Origin: Rhizophagus irregularis
Taxonomy: Eukaryota > Glomeromycota > Glomeromycetes > Glomerales > Glomeraceae
Assembly: GCF_026210795.1 (NCBI RefSeq)
Contig: NC_089433.1
Span: forward strand, 5,481,001 to 5,545,000
Direction of reading: 5' to 3'
Length of the DNA stretch: 64,000 bases
Part shown: piece by piece, positions 2,082 through 17,003 of the stretch
Position numbering within the stretch: position 1 is the stretch's first letter
How the letters are laid out: every line of letters begins with the position of its first letter
Translations under genes and position numbers: made by a program
Notes under the pieces: model-generated
Seen by the model: only the letters and a program-made list of their open reading frames with translations
Databases searched by the model: none
What the model was told of the DNA's origin: nothing

Positions 2082-2370
2082 CTTATGATTTTAAATTTAT
2101 TAATATTTTTATAATACAGTTTGAAGAATTAGTAGATTGTATGTAACATCATAATGTTTTTCAAGTTTTTGATAGTTGCTTATCAAATTTTTAATTTTAA
2201 GCTTATATACAGTCAACTCTCTTTATAGTCACACATTTGGGACAGTCCATATTTGGTGATTATAAAGAGATGTGACTATATAAAAAATTTCTTATATTTG
2301 TATATCATAATTCCGGCCAAAAATTAACATAATTTTAGCCAGAATTATACTTAAACCTTTATTGTATCGT

Positions 2371-2811
2371 AACTTCGCCAATATTAATCGTAGAGAGATG
2401 ATCTTACCGCCATTCGATTCGTCTTGATGAGACGGTTCTAATGGTATAAAATACGTCGAAATCCAATCACTAGATTAATTTCCGAAATTAAAAAAATATT
2501 AATGGTTTTTGTGTGATAACTCTGTTAATATTGATCCTAGAAAGTCGATCTTACTACCATTCGATTCGTCTTGATGAGACGAATCTAATGGTATAAAATA
2601 CATCGAAATCCAATCACTAGATCAATTTCCGAAATTAAAAAATATTAAATGGTTTTTAAGTAATAACTTCGTCAATATTGATCACAGAGAGATGAGCTTA
2701 CCACCATTCGATTCGTCTCGATGAGGCGATTCCAACGAGCTATAAATCATCTTTTTACAATCACTAGGTACCGAGAAATCTAGCAAAATGTTAAATGGCG
2801 CAGTAAACGTA
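2371..2811. repeat. 147-bp tandem repeat, three units
   Basis: Units start at 2371, 2518 and 2665 with a period of 147 bp. Each holds an 'ACCATTCGATTCGTCT' core followed by TGATG and AGACG, forming a hairpin; in unit 2 the arms GATTCGTCT (2563-2571) and AGACGAATC (2577-2585) pair perfectly over 9 bp. A fourth, diverged unit is split: its start lies before 2875 and its core resumes at 12088 beyond the inserts. The repeats make up most of the host TIR element. Confidence 0.8.
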
Positions 2812-2874
2812 AATCAAGAAATATTATAATGCCGATGTTTAACATTTTGTTGAATAACTCGTCAGCCAGTGATC

Positions 2875-2891
2875 GGAAAAGGATAAAACTA
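2875..2891. repeat. Target-site duplication copy 1
   Basis: GGAAAAGGATAAAACTA, preceded by host-transposon sequence and followed by the LINE 5' end. Aligning 2855-2890 plus 12088 onward with repeat unit 3 shows that this block occupies the place of the unit's diverged 'ACAGAGAGATGAGCTT' segment, so it is host target sequence. Confidence 0.8.
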
Positions 2892-3030
2892 AAAAGAATA
2901 AAACAAAAACTCTCTCCCGTTCTGCTCACTTGACAATATTTACGAAAAAAATAAAAAATTTTTTCGGAGTTTTTTATTACTTTTTCTTTATAATTTCTTT
3001 ATTTTAGTTAACTACTACGACACTTTACAA

Positions 3031-5043
3031 ATGGGTAAAGATAACAAAAAGAAAAATAACCAGTCTAACAAAGATACTACATCTAAACGTCCTGCCTCTA
3101 GCTCTCCAACTGGCAACGTTTCTGGTCAAGGTTCCTCTATGTCTGGTCCTTCGAACACCCCACCTTTGACCACCTCTACTAATAAACGTACCAGAGTCAG
3201 TGCTGAAGACTCTGTCATGGATGTTGATAAACCTCTCACGCCTCCTGGCCCTGTTGAGACAACTTCCGCTGAGCTACCTTCTCAACCTGATACCTCCTCT
3301 CTTGATGCCTCTCAACACGCCCCTAGCGATAAAGGCAAAAGCCCAGATATTACTCCCGCAGTATCCTTCCCTGAACGTGCTGCCTCCCCGGACGCGTCCC
3401 AGGCTGCAGTACAGTCTCAACCTACACTTTTTTACGCCTCGGCTGCTCCTAATGACGTCGAAGGCTTTTGGACTCACTTCGCTTCGAACCGCGACGCGTG
3501 CGACGCGGTTGATAGGCAACTTTCCTTGTTTCCCTCTTATGGTAGTCGTGCCACGTGTAGTGGTTCCAACGATTTGAAGAGGATCATCGTCCACTTCCGA
3601 AAAAAGGATGATCTTGACAAAGCCACAGCTTCCGCTATGGATTCCTTGTTTGGCTTGCATTTCCATGCATATGACCCCCAGGCTATTAAGGCAGATGAAC
3701 ACGCGCGTACCCTGGTGGTTACCGATATCCCCCTTTTTATAACTGACGCTCTTTTGCGTGGTACTTTTTCTCGTTACGGCAATATTACTCGCTGCCATAC
3801 CCGTTTATCTAAACTTTATCGTACTGCATACATTACCTTTGAATCTACTGGTGCTTTACGGGACCTCGACTCTACCTGGGGCGTCCTTTGTGGAGGACAT
3901 TGTTTGCGTATCTGCCCCGCTACCTTCTCACCTGACCAACGTGCTGAAAGACGCGCTTATGTCGCTTTACTTGCCGGTCTTCCGCGTGGTACTATAGCGG
4001 TCGATCTTGCTGAAATTGCCGATGAAATTTCCGCTAAATCTGTCAATGTTCCCTTCTCTATGAATTCCTACAATCCGAAACCTTACGCTTATTGCCATTT
4101 TGCCTCTGAAACGGCTATGGAAAACGCTAAATCTATTTCATGTGCCCTTAAGAAAGTTGGCCTTACCTGGCATTCTCCGGATGAAGTTACTTCTCTTTGT
4201 CATCGATGTGGTCGCCCGAACTGTAACCCTGATCGATGTGGTTCTTCATCTAGACCCAACCGCCCTCCTCGCCCTTGGCAATCTAATGATAAATTACGTG
4301 CTTTATATAACAAGCATTTACCCCCTTCTCATCCTGCTAAACGACATAATCGTTTCGCTCGCCCTGATAACGCTGATGATGGACAAAGCCGTGCCAATGC
4401 TTCTCGCCATCGTTCAAAATCCAGACCCAATACCCGACAACAATCTCGTTCTCGTTCTCAACGTCGCCCATGGAATCGTGACAATCTCAATAACAATAAT
4501 AATGCTCAACGCCGTCGCATTCCTGATGCAAATGAACTTGATTACTATATTGATGGCATGGATGTTACATACCCTGCTCCTCCCACTGTGCTCACTGATT
4601 GGAAATCTATTGGTGCTGCTCTTGAAAAAGTAGTTGAAGAATTAGCCCTTCTTACCACACAATTTGCTTCTATGAACAGCCGCATCACTAATTTGGAATC
4701 TGCTATGGCTGCTCGTACTCCTATTCCTGGACCTTTTGTCGCTAAACCTTCTTCCTACATCCCTTCCTCTATGCAAGGATGGGATGATACAGTGAATCGA
4801 ACTGATAATAATATCCTCGTTGATATTAATTCTCCACCTTTGCAATCAACAAGTGGTTTTTCCCCGATTCCTCATTTTGCTCCCATCCCACCTTCCAATG
4901 TCGCTCCTTCCTCCCCTATTGATATGGAACAGCGTCTCTCCTCTCTTTCTGATACTGTTGCCTCTTTGGCTGGTTCTATTAAAGAAGGAATCCAACAAAA
5001 CAACCTCATCTTGGCTCGGCAACAAGGCCAAGCCAATCAATAA
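3031..5043 (+). CDS. LINE ORF1, RRM and zinc-knuckle RNA-binding protein
   Basis: A 670-residue nucleic-acid-binding ORF1 protein, expected to coat the element RNA. The first 140 residues are low-complexity Ser/Thr/Pro. Residues about 226-296 form an RRM (RTLVVTDIP as RNP2-like strand, RTAYITF as RNP1-like strand), and 308-380 look like a second, weaker RRM. A Cys cluster follows (C390, C393, C398, C403; C-x2-C-x4-C-x4-C), then an Arg/Ser-rich stretch about 425-485. A C-terminal helical heptad region (around ALEKVVEELALL) probably oligomerises. The ATG at 3031 is the first in the frame after the 5' UTR. The stop lies 49 bp before the first ORF2 ATG, so ORF2 may be reached by reinitiation. Confidence 0.88.
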   Translation: MGKDNKKKNNQSNKDTTSKRPASSSPTGNVSGQGSSMSGPSNTPPLTTSTNKRTRVSAEDSVMDVDKPLTPPGPVETTSAELPSQPDTSSLDASQHAPSDKGKSPDITPAVSFPERAASPDASQAAVQSQPTLFYASAAPNDVEGFWTHFASNRDACDAVDRQLSLFPSYGSRATCSGSNDLKRIIVHFRKKDDLDKATASAMDSLFGLHFHAYDPQAIKADEHARTLVVTDIPLFITDALLRGTFSRYGNITRCHTRLSKLYRTAYITFESTGALRDLDSTWGVLCGGHCLRICPATFSPDQRAERRAYVALLAGLPRGTIAVDLAEIADEISAKSVNVPFSMNSYNPKPYAYCHFASETAMENAKSISCALKKVGLTWHSPDEVTSLCHRCGRPNCNPDRCGSSSRPNRPPRPWQSNDKLRALYNKHLPPSHPAKRHNRFARPDNADDGQSRANASRHRSKSRPNTRQQSRSRSQRRPWNRDNLNNNNNAQRRRIPDANELDYYIDGMDVTYPAPPTVLTDWKSIGAALEKVVEELALLTTQFASMNSRITNLESAMAARTPIPGPFVAKPSSYIPSSMQGWDDTVNRTDNNILVDINSPPLQSTSGFSPIPHFAPIPPSNVAPSSPIDMEQRLSSLSDTVASLAGSIKEGIQQNNLILARQQGQANQ

Positions 5044-5092
5044 TTGTTCTCTTTTTCCCCCTTCTTTATTACCGATTTATCAGTGTGTAATA

Positions 5093-8000
5093 ATGATGGA
5101 CAACAATAAACATAATTTTTCCCCTCACCCCTCTCCCCTTATTAAATTTGGTCAATTAAATGTTAATGGTTTATGTTCCCCAGTTCGACAACAACATTTG
5201 CTTAATTTTTTTCTTCACTCCTCCTTTGGTGCTTTATCTATTAATGATACGCGTCTTTCCCCTTCAAATGCTAAATTTATTTTTAAAAATGAACACTCCC
5301 AACATCACTTTAAGTCCTATTGGGCTTGTTCATCTTCTTCTTCTCGCCCTCATGATGGTGTTGGTATTTTATTACGTAATCCCCTTCATAAACATGTTCA
5401 AACAATTGATCCTTGGAACGGTCGACTTCTTAAATTAGATTTGTTCTTTCATCAAACTAAAATTTCTATTATTTCTGTATATTATCCCCCTTCCGGCTCT
5501 GTTCATCAATCTATTTGCAATGATCTTATTGCCAAACTTCTTTCTTGGCTCGATTATGCCCGAGCTAATAATTATTTTGTAGTTATTCTTGGCGACTTCA
5601 ATGCTGATGTAATCGCTCATTCTAATTATTCACCTAATCATTTTAAGCTTCTTCGCTTGCTTTCCTCTCGGTTTTTTACCGATCATCAAGCTCACTCCTC
5701 TACAAATGGTCCTGATCCCACTTTCTTTCATGATAATGGATCTTCTCGACTGGATTATATTTGGTCTTCGCCTGGTTTTCCTGCCCCTGGTCTTTTTTCG
5801 CAAGTGGTTACTTGTCCGAATCTTTTTGATCGACCTTTCACCGACCACAAAGTTCTTACAACTGTTTTTGACTTTAATTCTTGTCTGGCCATTTTGGCTA
5901 AATCTCGTCTTAAACAAAAAAAAGAAATGCGTACTATTTTTTCTTATGCTTCCACTTCAGTTGAACAATGGAATAATTTTACCGTTGAAGTAGATGATTC
6001 TCTTGGAGTTTATTTAGATAGCCATTATCGCCCTAATTCTGATTTCTCTTCCCTTTCTCTTGATCGTATGTGGCATGCATTGAAAGCTGCCATAATTAGT
6101 GCTGCAATTGAAACATTACCCTTTCAAAAAGTCTCTAATACACACCGACATTCGTACTCTCCTGAATTAACTAAACTTATTGCTATTAACAAGTTTTTAG
6201 ATCGATTTTTATATCGCCTTACTACTCGTCGCTCTAATCGGCCCGCTCAGATTGCGCAAATGACTGCTGCCTTGCCTTCCCATCTTGAGAACCTAGCTTC
6301 CTTACTTCCTGATTATTCAGTTCCTACCTATTCCACCACCCCTGCATCTGTATTTAAATCGTTTTTACGATCACAGAAAAGTTTAGTTTCTGCCTTTTTG
6401 TCTACTAAATTCGCCCAACACCTTACGGACTCAGTGGAATACTATACTGCACTACGTGACGAACATTTTTCGACTTCACTTGGCTCATTTATAGATTCTG
6501 CCTTATCAGTAGAAAAACGTTCGATTATTCTTGACCGTATCCTGGTTGTTCTGGACTCAACTCCTACTTTATTAACGGATCCTTCGGATATTAAACAAGC
6601 CGCTATTTCTCATTTTCAATCGATTGTTTCTCCCCCGTTGGTCCACTATTCTTCCATCACTTCATTTCCCGCCCGATGGCAACAAGCTTACACTCCTCTT
6701 GCAAATGTGTCTGCTTCATTATATGATCCTGTTTTGGCGCCTATTTCTCTACAAGAATGGTCTGCTGTGATTTCCTCCATGCCAAATAACAAAGCTTCCG
6801 GCCCTTCAAAAATTTCTTATGAGATGATTAAACATCTGTCCGGTGAAGCCTTGGATTTTTCTCTCTTACTTGCCAATACCTGCCTTTCTCGCGGTGATAT
6901 TTCTGCTGACTGGCGTGAAGCTGTGGTTTATCCTATTCCTAAACCTCACGATTTTGATGCTCAACTGAAGAACACTCGACCTATTACCCTTTTGGAAACA
7001 ATTCGTAAATGTGTAGTTAAGGTCGTTACGAATCGTCTTTCTAATATCCTTGCTGATGGTAAAATTCTTCAAGGAGGTAACTTTGCTGGTTTACCTGGTG
7101 GTTCCACTGATGTCCCTATCAAAATGCTCGACGCGATTATTCATCAACAGAAGCATGACTCTACTGATGATCAAGAACTATGGATCGTTTCTCAGGATAT
7201 TTCTAAAGCTTTTGATTCTATGGATCTAAATATGCTTAAATTAGCTTTAGAAAGATTACATATTCCTGCACTTTTAGTGCGATTTATTTTAAATCTTTTT
7301 ACACGACGAAATAATAAGATAATTACTTGTCATGGCGATACAGCTGCTTACAGAGTACGTGTTGGTATCGATCAAGGAGAAATCATTTCCCCTCTTCTTT
7401 GGGTTATTTATTTGGATCCTTTACTTACTGTTTTGAATCAACAAGCACGAGATCCCTTTATTTTAAAATCTTCAGCCCTTTTAAATTATTCTCCACTTGA
7501 ATTTGAACAACATTCTTTACCGGTTTCACATTTAACGTTTATGGATGATTCTACACTCATTGCTTCTTCAAAATCTGGCATAGAAGACCGTCTTTCTATT
7601 ACTGCTGAATTTTATACTTTAAATAATGTTCAAGCTAATTCTGCGAAATATGTTCTCCTTTCATCCTCTTCCCCCTCCTCGAAGATTATTTTTGATCTTT
7701 CCCCTTCTCCTTTAGTTCCCATTCCTTCCCTTTCCCTTTCTTCTTTATCTGTTAAAACTTCGTTTCGTTTTTTAGGAGTATGGTTTTCTTTATCTGCCTC
7801 TTCTGCTTTTGTTCTCAGACAAGTGCGCTCCATGGTTAAAGATATGGCAGCTCTCCTGGGACCGAAGAAATTATTAGCACAGCATGTGGCCTATCTTTAT
7901 AATGCTGTCCTTCTTCCGCGATTGGAATTTCGCCTTCAAACTACCCTTTTTTCTGAAAGTACTATTCAAACAATTGTCAAGCCTATGTTTTCGGTACTTC

Positions 8001-10189
8001 GAAGAAAAGCTGGTCTTGCTGCGACTACCCCGTTACCTTTATTATTCCTTAAACTTCCCTTTTCTATTCAAAATGCTTTTTATCGCTTTCTTTCTTCCCA
8101 TATTGCATCTTGGCAAAAAATCTTCACTCACCCTGATTTCAAAAATTTTGCCCTTTATGCTATCTCCTATCTTCAAGGATATTTGGGTGCTGAGAGTTGC
8201 CCGACTACTATCAACTTAGAACCATGGTCACAAATCGTTTCTTTGCGAACGCACACTTTGTTTAATTCGTTATTGTTTTCTTCGCGTTTGAACATCACGT
8301 GGTCTCTTTCCTTCCGGCCTCCGAGGCATGATCTACAACCTGCTCTGCCACTCCGATCTATTCTACCTCATTCCATCTTTCAATCAAGTTGGAAACTTTG
8401 GAAAAACCTGAATATATTTGTGCTTGCTCAGTTGGTTTCTCCTTGTAGACGTTATCTTATGAATTGGCCTGACCTTCGTTATCTTGGCATCGTTGGTCGT
8501 AAAGGACAGATTCCTAATTGGTTTACTTTTATCAATAATAATTTTCTTTCTTCTTCTTCTTCTACTTTACTTTTATCTTCATATTTTATTAATTCTTCTT
8601 TTACTTTAGCTTTTCCTTGTTTATTAGATCATACTGTTAAAGATTATTCTTTTTATCCTCAATGGGCTATTAATCTTGACTCTGCTACCCAAACTTTATC
8701 TGTTGGTCGTGTGTGTATCACCTACAAGAAACAAAACTCGGCTATTATGTCGCATTGGCTTCCTGTATCTCCCTCGGCTGATGAACGATCCTATAACCCT
8801 TGTCCTGGTTGTGCTCTTAACATTCCTGCCTTATCCAAGAAATCTGCTATCAAACAACGTTGTAATAGTGAGAAGTGTTTTTTCAATATCACCCTGTCGG
8901 AAACTGTGGGTTACCCTACTAGAAACGCCAAAGTTTTTGCGGCCTACCTCCCCATCACTCTTTCTACTTCATGGAGTTATGCCACGTCCTTGGCCCTTGT
9001 TCATTTGATGAACCCGCCCTCAACCGCTTCTTTCACCCTTTCTCCTTCTGTTAAGGACAATTTAGATGATGATGTTTTGCCGTCTTCTGTGCAATCTTTG
9101 TATACCGATGGCTCTTTCCGTCCTGCCAATGATTCTTTATCCTCTTCCATGGCTTCTGCTTGGATTGCGCTCGATGATGATGGATTTATCCTTGAATCTT
9201 CATCCATGCATCTTCCCTCTTGTTTTCCTTCGGCTCTACGTTCTGAAATTTATGCTGTTTTATTAGGATTGACCGCCCTCTCCCGTGATTCTTCAATTTC
9301 TATCTATACTGATTGTAGTCAGTTAATTTCATTATGGACACGTTTTGTTGATGTTCCTTTCTCACCGAAGTTGCTTCGAGAACCTAATCATCTTCTTTGG
9401 CTTTCTATTCGACAACTTATTATGGATCGTAACCTCCATGTCGATTTGATTAAAGTCCCTGCTCATGGCGATGACATTTATAATGTACAAGCGGATTCTT
9501 TGGCAAAAGATGCTCATTCATCTATACAACCTTCTGTTTCGCCTTTGGCATTTTGTCATGCTCCATGCTTGTTAACTTTTAATTCTTTACCTGTTGACAT
9601 GAATATTCGTCACTTTCTTCGCTCTATAGCAGACGCTCGTGCTCTTTTATCTTTTTGTTCATTGGCACGTTTTACTGCTCTTGGTTCTCCTTCACTTTTT
9701 GATTGGGCTGGTATATATTTTTGCCTTTCACAAATCAAAGGTTTTGCTTCACATAAGAATGGTCGTCCGGAATTCTGGATCTTCCGTATCAAACTCCTTT
9801 TGGATATGTTGCCTACCTTAACTACTCTTCAACAACGCAAACCTTACTTATACTCTCCTGACTGGCTTTGTCCGCAGTGTAACTCTGCTCCAGAAGATTT
9901 GAATCATCTTTGGACTTGTCCTTATATTTTACCAGAATTAAACCCTTGTTTAACACACCGGTCTGAAGTCATTAAATTTAGAAATTCTTGTTTATCTTCC
10001 TTTCTATCCTTGAAATCTTTGGATATTTCCTTTCAAACTGAATTTTTTGCTTTGGAATGTTGGAACTATGAAGCTCCTTCTTTATCCTGTCTTTGGCTTA
10101 CTCGAGGATTGTTGCCTGCACATTTAACGACATTTTTGAATCAACACTTCTCTCTCTGTTATATACAAGACTATTTCTCCCCTTCTTAA
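5093..10189 (+). CDS. LINE ORF2: endonuclease, reverse transcriptase, RNase H
   Basis: A 1698-residue polyprotein for target-primed reverse transcription. The N-terminal APE-type endonuclease (about residues 15-260) shows LNVNGL, GDFNAD near 166, the SRLDYIW motif and TDHKVL. The reverse transcriptase follows: palm motif A is SQDISKAFDSMD, motif B has GIDQGEIISPLLW, and the catalytic box is FMDDSTLIA near 816, with Met where FADD is usual. RNase H begins near 1335 (SLYTDGS, LRSEIYAVLLGL, IYTDCSQ, DSLAKDAH). A C-terminal CPQC-x8-H-x4-C knuckle lies near 1592. I chose the tandem ATG at 5093/5096; the frame stays open upstream into ORF1 without a better start. No stop interrupts it. Confidence 0.92.
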   Translation: MMDNNKHNFSPHPSPLIKFGQLNVNGLCSPVRQQHLLNFFLHSSFGALSINDTRLSPSNAKFIFKNEHSQHHFKSYWACSSSSSRPHDGVGILLRNPLHKHVQTIDPWNGRLLKLDLFFHQTKISIISVYYPPSGSVHQSICNDLIAKLLSWLDYARANNYFVVILGDFNADVIAHSNYSPNHFKLLRLLSSRFFTDHQAHSSTNGPDPTFFHDNGSSRLDYIWSSPGFPAPGLFSQVVTCPNLFDRPFTDHKVLTTVFDFNSCLAILAKSRLKQKKEMRTIFSYASTSVEQWNNFTVEVDDSLGVYLDSHYRPNSDFSSLSLDRMWHALKAAIISAAIETLPFQKVSNTHRHSYSPELTKLIAINKFLDRFLYRLTTRRSNRPAQIAQMTAALPSHLENLASLLPDYSVPTYSTTPASVFKSFLRSQKSLVSAFLSTKFAQHLTDSVEYYTALRDEHFSTSLGSFIDSALSVEKRSIILDRILVVLDSTPTLLTDPSDIKQAAISHFQSIVSPPLVHYSSITSFPARWQQAYTPLANVSASLYDPVLAPISLQEWSAVISSMPNNKASGPSKISYEMIKHLSGEALDFSLLLANTCLSRGDISADWREAVVYPIPKPHDFDAQLKNTRPITLLETIRKCVVKVVTNRLSNILADGKILQGGNFAGLPGGSTDVPIKMLDAIIHQQKHDSTDDQELWIVSQDISKAFDSMDLNMLKLALERLHIPALLVRFILNLFTRRNNKIITCHGDTAAYRVRVGIDQGEIISPLLWVIYLDPLLTVLNQQARDPFILKSSALLNYSPLEFEQHSLPVSHLTFMDDSTLIASSKSGIEDRLSITAEFYTLNNVQANSAKYVLLSSSSPSSKIIFDLSPSPLVPIPSLSLSSLSVKTSFRFLGVWFSLSASSAFVLRQVRSMVKDMAALLGPKKLLAQHVAYLYNAVLLPRLEFRLQTTLFSESTIQTIVKPMFSVLRRKAGLAATTPLPLLFLKLPFSIQNAFYRFLSSHIASWQKIFTHPDFKNFALYAISYLQGYLGAESCPTTINLEPWSQIVSLRTHTLFNSLLFSSRLNITWSLSFRPPRHDLQPALPLRSILPHSIFQSSWKLWKNLNIFVLAQLVSPCRRYLMNWPDLRYLGIVGRKGQIPNWFTFINNNFLSSSSSTLLLSSYFINSSFTLAFPCLLDHTVKDYSFYPQWAINLDSATQTLSVGRVCITYKKQNSAIMSHWLPVSPSADERSYNPCPGCALNIPALSKKSAIKQRCNSEKCFFNITLSETVGYPTRNAKVFAAYLPITLSTSWSYATSLALVHLMNPPSTASFTLSPSVKDNLDDDVLPSSVQSLYTDGSFRPANDSLSSSMASAWIALDDDGFILESSSMHLPSCFPSALRSEIYAVLLGLTALSRDSSISIYTDCSQLISLWTRFVDVPFSPKLLREPNHLLWLSIRQLIMDRNLHVDLIKVPAHGDDIYNVQADSLAKDAHSSIQPSVSPLAFCHAPCLLTFNSLPVDMNIRHFLRSIADARALLSFCSLARFTALGSPSLFDWAGIYFCLSQIKGFASHKNGRPEFWIFRIKLLLDMLPTLTTLQQRKPYLYSPDWLCPQCNSAPEDLNHLWTCPYILPELNPCLTHRSEVIKFRNSCLSSFLSLKSLDISFQTEFFALECWNYEAPSLSCLWLTRGLLPAHLTTFLNQHFSLCYIQDYFSPS

Positions 10190-10735
10190 TGACTTCCAAG
10201 TCGAATTATATGGTGAAATTTGGCTATGCCGGAATGTTCTTTTTCATGCTTGGGAAGAGTCGCAGGGTATCTCGGCTGCTTCCAAATTACGTGGCCCTTC
10301 TACAAATTCTTCTTCTTATACTATCTCTCCTCATCGTCACGACTCCTCTTTGGCGACAGTTTCTCAGGATTCCTGGATTTCTTGGATATCCTCTTCTATA
10401 ATTCGGGGTGGATCATGGATCTCGCACCTGGATTTTCTGCGCCGCTTAACAGTTCAACCTCTTAGGATCTCTTTCTGGTAACGGACTGGATTTTTGGATG
10501 TTGGATAGTTGACTCACACTGGCCTTCGGGTAAAGTTGGGGTATGCGATTCTGTAATAGTTTAGTTTTTCTTTGCTTTAATTTATTTTAGTTTAGATTTC
10601 TTTACTTGTATGAGTCGTGAAGCTACTCTTTTTTATTTTTTATTAGTTTATTTTCTTATTTTTGTAATATTGTTCGATGTTATTTTCGAAGTTCTAAATA
10701 TAAATAAAAGATAAAGTCGTAAGACTGTTTGCACA

Positions 10736-10752
10736 GGAAAAGGATAAAACTA
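10736..10752. repeat. Target-site duplication copy 2
   Basis: Identical 17-bp GGAAAAGGATAAAACTA between the LINE 3' end and the short SINE-like element. Confidence 0.8.
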
Positions 10753-11067
10753 GCCTAAAATGGTGGTATGGAAGGGTACTAGATGGTTGATGTTACCTGT
10801 CGAAAGTCCTCCATGAAAGTAGATGCTCTCTAAAAGGTCGTTGAATAAATTGAGTATCGTATCGTACAATGGGTATAGGATGAGTAGGCGGCGTGTACTG
10901 CTTCAGATCGGCCTAAATGGCCCGAAGGGGGATGTCTTATAGTGGTGCTGTTACCTGAGGAATTAAGTACTCGGTTTAATAGTTGCCCATTGAAGATGAT
11001 AGGACACAGACCCGAGATTAGTCGCTAAGAGGCGAATGGGTGGTACGGCCGTAAAAGCACTTGCAAA
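10753..11067 (+). mobile_element. Short SINE-like element, 5'-truncated copy
   Basis: A 315-bp segment with no coding frame, noticeably richer in G+C than the flanks, bounded on both sides by the 17-bp target duplication. From CCTAAAATGG at 10754 to the end it is nearly the same as 11763-12071, the 3' third of the next element, differing by scattered substitutions and small indels. It ends GTAAAAGCACTTGCAAA, directly joined to the duplication, with no poly-A. The shared 3' end with a missing 5' part is what 5'-truncated target-primed insertion leaves. The orientation is taken from that 3' end. Confidence 0.65.
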
Positions 11068-11084
11068 GGAAAAGGATAAAACTA
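11068..11084. repeat. Target-site duplication copy 3
   Basis: Identical 17-bp GGAAAAGGATAAAACTA between the short and long SINE-like elements. Confidence 0.8.
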
Positions 11085-12071
11085 GGGTTGGTCACCCTAT
11101 CTTGGTGGTTAGTCGAGACCATCCGTTAAGCCTGAGTATGGTGAGGTTGCAGGTTCGATTCCCATGACCACGGAAATAAAAAGAATTTTACTGCGGACGC
11201 TACAACCAATAGCGTGAAGGTACAGGGATTAGTGTAGTTGGTTTACTGCATCATGGTGAATTAGTGTGTACAGTTAGGCCGCGGCATTTCAGGGGCGTAA
11301 GGGTCATGGTGCCTTCTTAACGTCCCTATGAGGCCATTGGCATGTGCGCAGTCCTGTCCATTCGAGGTCGCTACTATACCGGGGTGGGGGGACTTCCTGT
11401 GGGCTGGTGGTCACTCTGCGATGCCGCTTGGGGTCAGTAATGGCTAGATGGTCATCCATAGATGGTAAAGCTGAGGGTGCAATGTCTTAGTGGTAGTTAG
11501 ACTTCTGTTAGGTCTTAGGAACCAACCAAGGTGTTCGTGCACAGAACAGGTAGCATGGCTATGGGGTTCGATTCCCTACTCCTTGGGTCCTGGTTGGTTG
11601 ATCCCTGGTGGTTGATACCCACCATAAGGGGTGATCCTGGACAGATGCCTGCTACTTCCTGTCTGAGTGGTCACTTACAAAGTATACCACTTGGGGTAAA
11701 CAACTGTACTATCGGTGCTAGGTAATCGCGGGCTGTAGTGGCGCTTTGAGTGAGACTTAGTACCTAAAATGGTAGTATGGAAGGGTACTAGATGGTTGAT
11801 GTTACCTGTCGAAAATCCTCCATGAAAGTAGATGTTCTCTAAAGGTCGTTAAATAAATTGAGTATCGTATCATGCAATGGGTATAGGATGAGTAGGCGGC
11901 GTGTATCTGCTTCAGATCAGCCTAAAATGGCCCGATGGGAGATGTCTTATAGTGGTGCTGTTACGAGGAATTAAGTACTCGGTATAATGATTGCGCATTG
12001 AAGATGATAGGGCACGCCGAGATTAGTCTCGCCAAGAGGCAATGGGTGGTCTGGCCGTAAACACTTGCAAA
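11085..12071 (+). mobile_element. Long tRNA-related composite SINE-like element
   Basis: A 987-bp non-coding segment between 17-bp duplications. Near its 5' end, GGTCACC about 11090, an A-box-like CTTGGTGGTTAGTCGAG, a B box GGTTCGATTCC at about 11153 and ATGACCAC together resemble a degenerate tRNA with pairing ends. A second module near 11480-11585 has an A-box-like TCTTAGTGGTAGTTAGAC and a B box GGGGTTCGATTCCC. The last 309 bp repeat the short element next door. It ends GTAAACACTTGCAAA with no poly-A. RNA polymerase III promoters and lack of coding capacity fit a SINE mobilised by a LINE; nearly 1 kb is unusually long. Confidence 0.6.
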
Positions 12072-12088
12072 GGAAAAGGATAAAACTA
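12072..12088. repeat. Target-site duplication copy 4
   Basis: Identical 17-bp GGAAAAGGATAAAACTA, followed directly by the host repeat core CCACCATTCGATTCGTCT. This is the right border of the whole insert stack. Confidence 0.8.
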
Positions 12089-12370
12089 CCACCATTCGAT
12101 TCGTCTCAGTGAGACGATTCTAACAAGCTAGCGACACATCTTTGTACGATTATTAGATGCCAAGTTATTTAATATATTCTTTATATAACCGTGATTATAA
12201 ACGGTTCTTTTTAATATAAGATTTTTGAGGATAGGTGTGATAGTGACTATAGATAGATTGTGACTATATAGGATAGATTTTAATAATAAAGTGTTTTGAA
12301 CATTCAACTGGTGTGACTATATAGTAGAATGTGACTATAACGGGAGTGACTATAGAGGGAGTTGACTGTA

Positions 12371-13700: not shown

Positions 13701-16700
13701 TTACATTTGACTGTTCCATCCCTGGATTTCGGGGACAGCCACTTTCTTCCCCTTAAATTCTGCTATCCCTCGGATCCTCCTACCACCAGCGATTATAGCA
13801 ACCGGCACAGCACTTGGTTGACCGGTGGTCAAAGCCGCTTTCTGTTTTTCATTCCCTTGATCCATTGGCATAATTCTTTCGTCGCATAAGGGACATTTAT
13901 AATTGGCATCGGTATTCTCAACTAATTCTTGATATTTTTCTGATGTGATGTCTTCATCACACCTTATATGGATCCACCTATCACATACATCACAGCAAAT
14001 CATTTCTTTATCATCTTCATTTTCTTCTCCATCTTCGGAATAAGTTTTCAAGCACATTGGACAGAACCTATCTTCGGAGAAGTTGAAATTGCATTTGTTA
14101 CATATCGTTGCCAAGTATATTGGAAATTTTGTTGATTCAGATGTTGCCTCCGCATGATGATAGTTGTTAGCAGCATCATTCAGCGAGATAGCTTTTTCTC
14201 CGCATGAATTGCATTGGGCACAAAGTGAACACAACCATGGGCCTATATTAAAAAAAAAATGTTATGATAAAGACTAAGGTGACTTAAATAAATCCAATAA
14301 ATTTCTTTACCTTGGGGAACTTCGGTAACTTTGGGATCACTACAATCAAGATGCCAGCCACGGTCACAGTCGTCGCAGATTAGAAGTGTTGATTCGTCTT
14401 CAGAAGAATGACATTTAACACAACTTTTGCAATCATTACATAGCCAAGAATATCCTTCCATTGCAATGATAGGTCGTGGGGTTGTAAGGCCTATGCAAAG
14501 CGGATGATACTTTCTTAAGCAATTTGCACATTTGCTCTTATATTCTTTTGAACATGATGCACCAGTACGGGGTACGGTGGCGTCAGGAGCAGTAATTGAA
14601 AAACATATCGCGCAAGAATTCTCAGGGAGAACGGGTAAAGGTTGAGCTACATTTGGAGTAGGTGCAACAACCGCGTAATTTGATGTAGCAACGTCATTTG
14701 ATAACTACAACAATAATTGTATATACTAATTAATGATAAAACGATAAATTTTGATTCACAAATTTAATATATTTTCTTACCGGGACTATACTGGAACCTA
14801 TTACAACAGGTTTAGTTCTTTCTAAGGTATTTCTATCCGAGGTTGCTTCAACATTTATAGGGTCACGCGGGTGTCCCTTATGATACATGCACCTGTCCCC
14901 CTCGAAAGACACCCCGCGTTTGCAAGGTTGTCCAGTTGTTGCGGTCAATACACCACAAATATACTGGGGAGGTGCTTTTCCAGTCGTATACTGAAACCTA
15001 TTCATAATATTACTTGTCTAAAAAAAAAAAAATAGAATATAAATTGTTTGAGAAATTATCATTAATATACTTGAAAAGTCTTGACGTACCGGATCAGGAG
15101 TATAATAGTAACGCTGTTCATATGGAGTCTCATTAGCATCATGTGACATAACAGATGATGGTTGCGGGGCAATTTCTTGGTGAGAGGCAACGGCCGAAGG
15201 GTGGTTTAAAACTCTGGGAAGATCTTGACCAAATCTTGTACGGTGACTATATCCATTTTATAAATCAGAGTATTAAATTAGTTTATAAAGGAAAACATGT
15301 TACAATTAAAAAATAATTACTTACATTGGATACCTATGTTGAAATTGGCCATCCATTAATGTCATAGGATATTTTTCCTCATGAGTTTGTCGTGTCCCCT
15401 CCTCCATTTTCATACTGTCAATAATCTGTCGGATCTCATGAGGTAAAACCTCCAAAACTTCTGGATTTAGCGTGCCAAAAGGATTGTGAGGGACCGTTTC
15501 AAAATGAATATCTGGATCCTTTGTTGCTATCGTAATATCACTTGATAGTGGTAATACTCTCGGCTGTGATAAGGCTTCAACTCGTATGCACGTAGGCTGA
15601 GTTGCCTGAGGTACTTGATCGATATTAGTATGAGGATCATAAAATCTTGGTTTTTCTTTCCTATGAATCTTTAATCTAGTATTATAATCTCTTGTCGATA
15701 AAGCTGTTTGATACATCCAATTTGTCTTATTGACAACTTTACGTGGTTTTGAACCCAAATATACTCGTCTTGAAAGAATATTACTAGCATTATCTGCTCC
15801 TGATGCCTCCCCTTTGTCACTCAGATCATCATCATTAAATCTAATTGATGATTCATAATAATCATCTTTCCTTCTTTTCCCCCCTACAATAATTTTCGAC
15901 CCAAACAGTTTGTACGTAGCTCTAGCTGAAACAAGTGTAATCGCTCTGCTTCTGAAATTTGATGGCAAAAATCCATGCGTGATAAGGTAATCACGTTCTT
16001 GATCTGTCGCATGTATTCGTTTCAAAGTTGGGTTCCGTAAAAAGAACAAATAACTGTCCCGAAAACCTAATAGTTTTGCAGGATCCATAGATAACATGTA
16101 CCAGATGTTTCCTCGAGATGGTAATTGAAAAACCTGTACTTTAAATTTACGACCACCTAATAACTCCCCGTCTTTCGTAATTTTTTGTTCCCCCTTTTCA
16201 TCAAGTTTACCATCATCTTCATCGTTATTGTTTCCTCCTTCAGCTTCATCAGCCTCCATTGGTTGTGTCGTTATCATTTGTTGAATTTCAACATTATTTT
16301 CGTCTGTTGGCTTATTACGTAATGTAGCATCGCCATTAACTTGCTTGCTCGACACTTCTAATTTCTTTCGACGTTTCGTATCAGCGTCGTCTTTCGTTTT
16401 CTTTCTACGTTTTGTGACACCACCATCATCTGCCTTTTTTTTACGTTTTGTGCTAGTAGGTGTGTTAATAATATTGTTAACAGATTCAGGATGCTTACGC
16501 GGTCGACCTGGTTTACGTTTTATCGGAGTTATAACTGTAGCCGTTGGCTGTGAAGGCTCGGGATTAACAGTATAACGTATTCTTAATCTCGGTTGCGGTG
16601 TTGGCTGTTTTTCTTGAGAAGTCTGATCAATGTCCATATCCATATTTGAATCTGTAGCAGTGGTATCTGTAATAGTTTGTGGAGTTTCTACTTGCTCAGT

Positions 16701-17003
16701 TTCAAGAGGGAGTGTAAGTGGTGTCAAAAGGGCTAATTTGTTGCCCTTACGTGCAGCAGAACGTGTTTGCCTTGGAATAGGAACAGGCTTAGAACGTGCA
16801 TTGCGCTTTGGTCTAGCTTCTCTTACTACATTATGTAAAATAAAAAGCGTTGTTAATGAGGTTATTTAGGAATATAGATCGACTATAACGCGAAAAAAAA
16901 GGCAGCACGATCTTAAAAGAATTATTTCATGGATTCGGTTCGTAAAAGTAAAGTAGTAATTAATAATTTGTAAATATAGTGAATACAAACCTCCTTGTGG
17001 CAT
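13701..17003 (-). CDS. RSC7/Swp82-type chromatin remodelling subunit with PHD fingers
   Basis: Six exons (17003-16991, 16825-15325, 15246-15090, 15017-14781, 14704-14311, 14242-13701) give 947 residues. The N-terminal part is basic with AT-hook-like KRKPGRPRKHP. The middle (KVQVFQLPSRGNIWYMLSMD to FGSKIIVGGKRRKDDYYE) matches the Npl6/RSC7-Swp82 family of SWI/SNF-type remodellers. Then comes a Cys/His cluster (ICGVLTATTGQPCKRG ... RCMYHKG), and the C-terminus has PHD fingers: CAICFS... and CVKCHSSEDESTLLICDDCD with WLCSLCAQC, and a further one with ICCDVCDRWIHIRCD. Yeast RSC7 lacks PHDs, whereas animal PHF10/SAYP pairs a related domain with tandem PHDs, so this looks like that architecture. 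Exon 1 codes only four full residues. Nuclear, nucleosome-binding role inferred. Confidence 0.82.

Follow-up and report, generated by a model that had tools for sequence, protein, structure and literature searches.

In Xenopus laevis the long interspersed nuclear element (LINE) Tx1L has a fixed insertion site in Tx1D, a DNA transposon present in many copies. A target inside a DNA transposon is a trait of some members of the Tx1 clade only. In fungi, the MoTeR- and CRE-type LINEs are target-specific, with a restriction-like endonuclease and telomeric targets. In excerpts from the literature, the Tx group is described as target-specific LINEs (PMC3747384), the targets of LINEs are said to include transposons, and Tx1 and R1 appear as target-specific clades with an apurinic/apyrimidinic endonuclease (APE) (PMC4640811). 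Here we describe a locus in contig NC_089433.1 of the fungus Rhizophagus irregularis, within a stretch of 64,000 nt (the window), where a LINE and two elements resembling short interspersed nuclear elements (SINE-like elements) are stacked at one site of a DNA transposon. An APE-type LINE family of this fungus appears to insert at one position of a multicopy TA-flanked DNA transposon of ~961 bp, and we give this reading a probability of about 0.93. Taken with a second family, the best reading is of two sister APE-type LINEs with strict but different sites in one DNA transposon.

The locus resembles Tx1L/Tx1D in that a LINE occupies a fixed position of a DNA transposon present in many copies; both target sites here lie in one TA-flanked transposon. 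The locus differs in being fungal, in having two sister LINEs at two sites of one transposon, in the SINE-like elements at each site and the mixed arrays, and in the RNase H domain of its second open reading frame (ORF2). With the APE-type LINEs of the R1 clade it has in common the endonuclease, a fixed target and target duplication, but the target is a DNA transposon rather than rDNA or telomeric repeats. Target specificity is also common to the MoTeR- and CRE-type fungal LINEs, whereas here it is found with an APE and a DNA transposon. Excerpts of the paper on the R. irregularis transposable element library name SINE, LINE/L1-Tx1, L1-R1 and LINE/I families (PMC11075540), and the present elements may be among these. 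Those excerpts of its main text have no mention of a target or insertion site, site-specificity, nesting or tandem arrangement (PMC11075540). A LINE that specifically targets a DNA transposon was not recognised in any report on fungi in the literature searched, which excluded most subscription papers and Repbase notes.

Insertion sites within the host transposon

The array is divided by four exact copies of a 17-mer (Table 1). Shuffled sequences contain on average 0.07 matches to the 17-mer when as many as two mismatches are allowed, and four matches were reached in 0 of 100 shuffles. The initial annotation had read the four copies as delimiting a LINE, a 0.3-kb and a 1-kb SINE-like element inside a DNA transposon. 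Each part of this description holds: the copies are identical, the elements stand in that order, all on the plus strand, and the transposon has inverted ends with TA on either side.

With the three insertions removed and a single copy of the target retained, the length of the host transposon is calculated as 962 bp. An empty copy elsewhere in the genome (L063; L-numbers denote genomic stretches extracted for reading) is 961 bp long; in it the target is at offset 665, and TA flanks either end. Fourteen empty-site loci were checked, of which eight were resolved at both ends (two of them being one locus) with loose edges. Seven of these transposons are 964–965 bp and one is 1,397 bp, with TA following the right end in each. 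Terminal inverted repeats (TIRs) together with a TA target duplication are as found in Tc1/mariner-type transposons. No transposase was seen in the copy in the window, and no search was made for an autonomous partner. The interior of this copy contains three 147-nt tandem repeats (2359–2799), the second 84% and the third 64% like the first, and a 44-nt part of the repeat recurs immediately to the right of site 1, at 12087–12130.

Genome scans, which cover the 146.7-Mb assembly of 32 contigs, give 360 matches to the 17-mer (site 1) and 0 to its reversed control. For the first 30, taken in the order of the genome, BLAST was used to classify the flanks, and all lie between transposon, SINE-like element or LINE on both sides. 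Upstream there are 11 transposon left sides, 15 SINE ends and 4 LINE ends; downstream there are 18 transposon right sides, 10 SINE starts, 1 LINE start and 1 flank without a BLAST match. Taken in pairs, these are 9 empty transposons, 9 SINE–transposon, 4 SINE–SINE, 4 LINE–SINE, 2 transposon–SINE and 1 SINE–LINE, with 1 SINE upstream of the unmatched flank. By eye (that is, by manual sequence comparison) the last (L016) continues as a 19-nt LINE stub and then another copy of the target. The four LINE ends received the BLAST label of the sister family described below, because both LINE families have a common 3′ untranslated region (UTR); the end letters of two (L019 and L027) were read. All seven LINE tails found in these 30 stretches (L001–L030) abut site 1. 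Genome-wide there are 228 empty copies of site 1 and 490 transposon right junctions (≤3 mismatches), so that about half of the sites are occupied, a rough figure as the two patterns differ in stringency.

A search for LINE 3′ ends gave 347 candidates, of which 40 were scored and 30 loci were extracted; the main tail of each of these 30 abuts site 1. A wider tail pattern matches 338 LINE tails, and the junction patterns for site 1 and for a second site match 161 and 130, respectively. Twenty more regions were extracted, 19 of them chosen because their tail was absent from the list of site-1 junctions. They hold 22 tails, 7 at site 1 and 15 followed by ATAATCACCAAATAT, the second site (site 2). 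In the two sets together (L031–L060 and L071–L090) 54 tails were read, 38 at site 1, 16 at site 2 and 0 at neither. LINE copies with unrelated flanks, which the initial annotation had named as evidence that would count against targeting, were looked for and amount to 0 of 54. Random insertion is rejected on these 54 tails at two sites together with the flanks of the first 30 17-mers, by which the elements enter a repeated target at a single nucleotide position. At site 1 insertion is precise and fixed in orientation, between AGTGATC and G[G/C/T]AAAAGGATAAAACTA, the second base of the target being variable (GG, GC or GT). Some LINE copies are truncated at the 5′ side with an intact 3′ end, the shortest being a stub of 21 nt, and by eye one of 19 nt.

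Site 2 is located on the minus strand beside the left TIR of the same transposon, ~0.6 kb from site 1 (2263 to 2875 in the window), and the LINEs at the two sites have opposite orientations. In L091 a sister LINE occupies site 2 between two copies of the 15-mer, beyond which the TIR lies, and the adjoining L104 shows that the same transposon copy retains an uninterrupted site 1. A second such copy lies on contig C2 (L082 and L105), with the sister LINE (LINE-2) at site 2 and site 1 uninterrupted. Genome-wide, site 2 is found with the 130 LINE-2 tails, with 76 tails of its own SINE-like element (SINE-2) and in 444 empty matches. Matches to the reverse transcriptase (RT) of the window copy fall at 85–100% or at 77–78% identity (94 scored of 1171 candidates). 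Between the window LINE and that of L091, ORF1 is identical at 230 of 625 positions (37%), the endonuclease at 71%, the RT at 80% and the RNase H at 60%. Residues 1101–1300 (in the ORF2 frame from 5078), located between RT and RNase H, are 35–38% identical, and this stretch may take part in target choice. The 3′ UTRs of the two LINEs are strongly alike (score 375, against a shuffle maximum of 136). Two findings extend the initial annotation: a sister family has a separate site in this transposon, and either site also receives a SINE-like element.

The SINE-like elements use the target sites of the LINEs, with 279 tails of the site-1 element (SINE-1) at site 1 and the 76 SINE-2 tails at site 2. 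The 315-nt element of the window aligns to positions 678–987 of the 987-nt element with 288 of 318 columns identical, and is therefore a 5′-truncated member of the same family. A motif scan finds two perfect RNA polymerase III B-box motifs in SINE-1, while the A-box scan is unspecific. ARAGORN finds no tRNA in the window, and a scan of the window against Rfam at the gathering threshold gives nothing. The sole SINE-2 copy aligned (L080, 5′-truncated) has a body close to SINE-1 by eye to position ~700, and its last ~280 positions have diverged strongly from those of SINE-1, though still related to them (score 92, against 58 at most in shuffles).

Arrays, target duplications and alternative explanations

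The initial annotation had argued that each insertion rebuilds the target on both sides and that the array can thereby grow, and element-sized spacings do recur in the genome. Among 100 listed of the 360 17-mers there are 36 neighbours closer than 12 kb, 35 of the 36 on the same strand. Their spacings include 982–1015 (the SINE unit) 17 times and 7850–7879 (the LINE unit) seven times, with the window included. Clustering at site 2 used 176 listed 3′ ends (100 of 130 LINE-2 and 76/76 SINE-2), from coordinates only and at gaps of ≤8,350 bases. The ends form 106 clusters, 40 with two or more elements, and the largest by coordinates has six, in the order LINE, LINE, SINE, LINE, SINE, SINE; a six-element cluster lies on contig C12 near 2.29–2.31 Mb. 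Direct reading of L080 shows one small array of mixed composition at site 2, comprising a LINE, a SINE-like element and a LINE stub with a 28-nt tail.

Such arrays might come from a few insertions followed by growth through unequal exchange, or by movement of loaded transposons, in place of repeated targeted retrotransposition. Some clusters do contain runs of like units, such as three LINE-2 3′ ends ~8.01 kb apart, and a composite could travel on the ends of the transposon. However, neighbours among the listed site-2 ends occur in all four orders (LINE–SINE 21, SINE–SINE 20, SINE–LINE 15 and LINE–LINE 14), which favours separate insertions. The 5′ truncations are varied and stubs follow LINE tails, the two SINE-like elements of the window differ in 30 of 318 columns, and LINEs are found at GG, GC and GT targets alike. 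Growth from a few founding insertions is thus very unlikely to account for the arrays, though exchange or transposon movement may contribute to some of them.

The pattern of a 17-mer after each element would also be obtained if it belonged to the 3′ tail of the elements and travelled with every copy, the second observation that the initial annotation had named as counting against targeting. The 17-mer does come after the 30 main LINE tails and the 279 SINE-1 tails; but it also stands in the 228 transposon sites without insertion, and a different sequence follows the nearly identical tail of the sister LINEs. The variable second base of the target separates the two explanations. LINE copies were chosen according to which variant (GC, GT or GG) adjoins their 3′ end, and the stretches ~7.85 kb upstream were then read; of 12 extracted, eight contain a 5′ junction and four do not. 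The variant is equal at the 5′ and 3′ junctions in all eight LINE copies (four GC, one GT and three GG), the two ends of each being linked by distance, strand and an RT match between them rather than by reading the interior. A sequence carried by the element could not track the variant of the local transposon. The 17-mer is therefore a target duplication, as is found on insertion of APE-type LINEs, and an origin as element tail has hardly any probability left. Neither of the two observations named in the initial annotation was thus made, and its proposal of targeted insertion is supported. The duplication is mostly 16–17 bp by eye, with up to 20 suggested at one junction, and the junction endings vary (AAAACT, AAAACA or ACTACCA). 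Several LINE 5′ ends (L092–L102) have extra, variable letters resembling AAAACTA, in part a repeat of the target's end, which suggests slippage or re-copying of the target at the end of synthesis. That the stack is an artefact of collapsed or mis-joined repeats is equally improbable: repeats of this length are hard to assemble and the stack is known from the assembly, but identical junctions occur at many separate loci with differing flanks, lengths and variants.

Several points weigh against targeted insertion, or against parts of it. The junction counts for the two sites sum to 291 (161 + 130), 47 below the 338 LINE tails, a rough balance as the patterns are not nested and the tails read individually number 54. 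Misses of the junction patterns are expected, because these allow substitutions only and small junction indels are seen by eye in 5 of the 30 main tails. Similarly, the 279 SINE-1 junctions are 49 below the 328 matches to the SINE-1 tail alone, 13 of which are background as judged by the reversed control (13 matches). Unequal exchange could make some arrays of like units, the interiors of the arrays being known mostly by coordinates. A 3′ end common with the partner LINE is a trait of many SINEs, though not of all. Here the 3′ regions of LINE-1 and SINE-1 are unlike, 111 of 200 shuffles scoring as high, and the likeness is weak at best for LINE-2 with SINE-2 (16 of 200 shuffles) and for LINE-1 with SINE-2 (8 of 200). 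Because the shuffle comparison finds no 3′ end common to these elements and their partner LINE, we call them SINE-like. With weak or no likeness of the 3′ regions, the link of LINE and SINE-like element rests on the shared site. The interpretation is weakest where it has the LINE mobilise the SINE-like element, which is drawn from this and from a brief likeness at the termini noted by eye. Finally, the role of the endonuclease in choosing the site is deduced from sequence, and a single-sequence structure model of the domain has a pLDDT (predicted confidence score) of 37.

Coding content of the site-1 LINE

ORF1 lies in an open frame from 2902 to 5043 and is followed by ORF2 (Table 1). The matches of ORF2 in Pfam are RVT_1 (6.9e-18), Exo_endo_phos (7.2e-10) and RNase_H (4.9e-08); APE endonuclease and RT are thus both present, as in target-specific APE-type LINEs. 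Compared with L091 the ORF2 of the window stops early, and by eye similarity resumes downstream in another frame. The neighbours of the RT in the PDB are human L1 ORF2p (1.5e-17) and R2 (4.2e-17). Compared with solved structures, the predicted endonuclease gives just two weak sphingomyelinase matches (E 0.18). A scan of ORF2 against NCBIfam gives four matches, every one under its cut-off. No relative of the RT was confirmed among viral contigs, the collection searched (other contig, phage and plasmid collections lay outside the search). The 3′ region of the LINE folds no better than shuffled sequences (z −0.23).

At the position where the window LINE reads NDT (5240–5257, INDTRL in ORF2), E is usual in LINE endonucleases, within a QET-like motif; NDT is present both in the window LINE and in L091. 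The endonuclease of L091 reads GNFNAD where the window copy has GDFNAD, and may for this reason be inactive.

Beyond the array, PHD-finger and Rsc7/Swp82-like chromatin genes adjoin it at 13704–16865 of the window, Rsc7/Swp82 being a chromatin-remodelling family, as suits a fungus.

Table 1. Features of the array and its host transposon, in window coordinates
Feature	Position	Strand	Basis or remark
Host DNA transposon copy	2210..12368	.	TIRs CAGTCAACTCTCTTTATAGTCAC / GTGACTATAGAGGGAGTTGACTG at ends
TA flanks of host transposon	2208-2209 + 12369-12370		Read from sequence
Second target site (ATAATCACCAAATAT), empty in window copy	2249..2263	-	One of the empty matches to site 2, C5:5483236-5483268:-
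Target site 1 / target duplication copy 1, left of LINE	2875..2891	+	17-mer match
Site-1 LINE, 7,844 nt	2892..10735	+	Bounded by target duplications
LINE ORF1, RRM domain	3031..5043	+	Open frame, ATG 3031; Pfam RRM_1 1.1e-06
LINE ORF2: putative APE-type endonuclease, RT, RNase H	5093..10189	+	ATG 5093 read from sequence; Pfam
Target duplication copy 2	10736..10752	+	17-mer match
5′-truncated SINE-like element, 315 nt	10753..11067	+	Alignment to 987-nt element
Target duplication copy 3	11068..11084	+	17-mer match
Full-length SINE-like element, 987 nt	11085..12071	+	B-box motifs at 11152 and 11565
Target duplication copy 4, then transposon right flank	12072..12088	+	17-mer match

Proposed mechanism and implications

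The steps proposed here follow established target-primed reverse transcription. The choice of site would be made by the ORF2 endonuclease itself, nicking the bottom strand opposite the junction between GATC and GG; its preferred junction at site 1 would be that of GATC with GGAAAAGG. The nicked end would then prime the copying of LINE or SINE RNA by reverse transcription, starting at the 3′ end of the RNA. A cut in the top strand ~17 nt downstream, with some looseness, would yield the duplication. Each insertion leaves an intact target at either end, and arrays form as a result. As they grow while an element occupies one side of the target, the information required probably lies mostly in the 17-mer and one flank. 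The sister LINE, of the same architecture, uses a 15-mer of its own, facing the other way and accompanied by a separate SINE-like element, and the transposon thus acts as a multiplying landing pad common to two LINE/SINE pairs. We somewhat favour a history in which the two LINE lineages split by target switching within one transposon, the SINE-like partners splitting along with them (the 5′ body kept and the 3′ part changed), leaving a niche that is partitioned and renewable.

Target-specific LINEs are a test bed for the evolution of endonuclease specificity and candidates for safe gene insertion. As the two LINEs are related (RT ~78–80%, endonuclease 71% and ORF1 37% identical) and have different sites ~0.6 kb apart in one host transposon, the part that sets the target is directly testable. 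If the interpretation is correct, the pair would provide a natural comparison for the roles of endonuclease loops, the fast-diverging stretch between RT and RNase H, and the 3′ RNA in target choice. The SINE-like elements that share these sites, and the self-renewing arrays, may help repeats to expand in the genome of an arbuscular mycorrhizal fungus.

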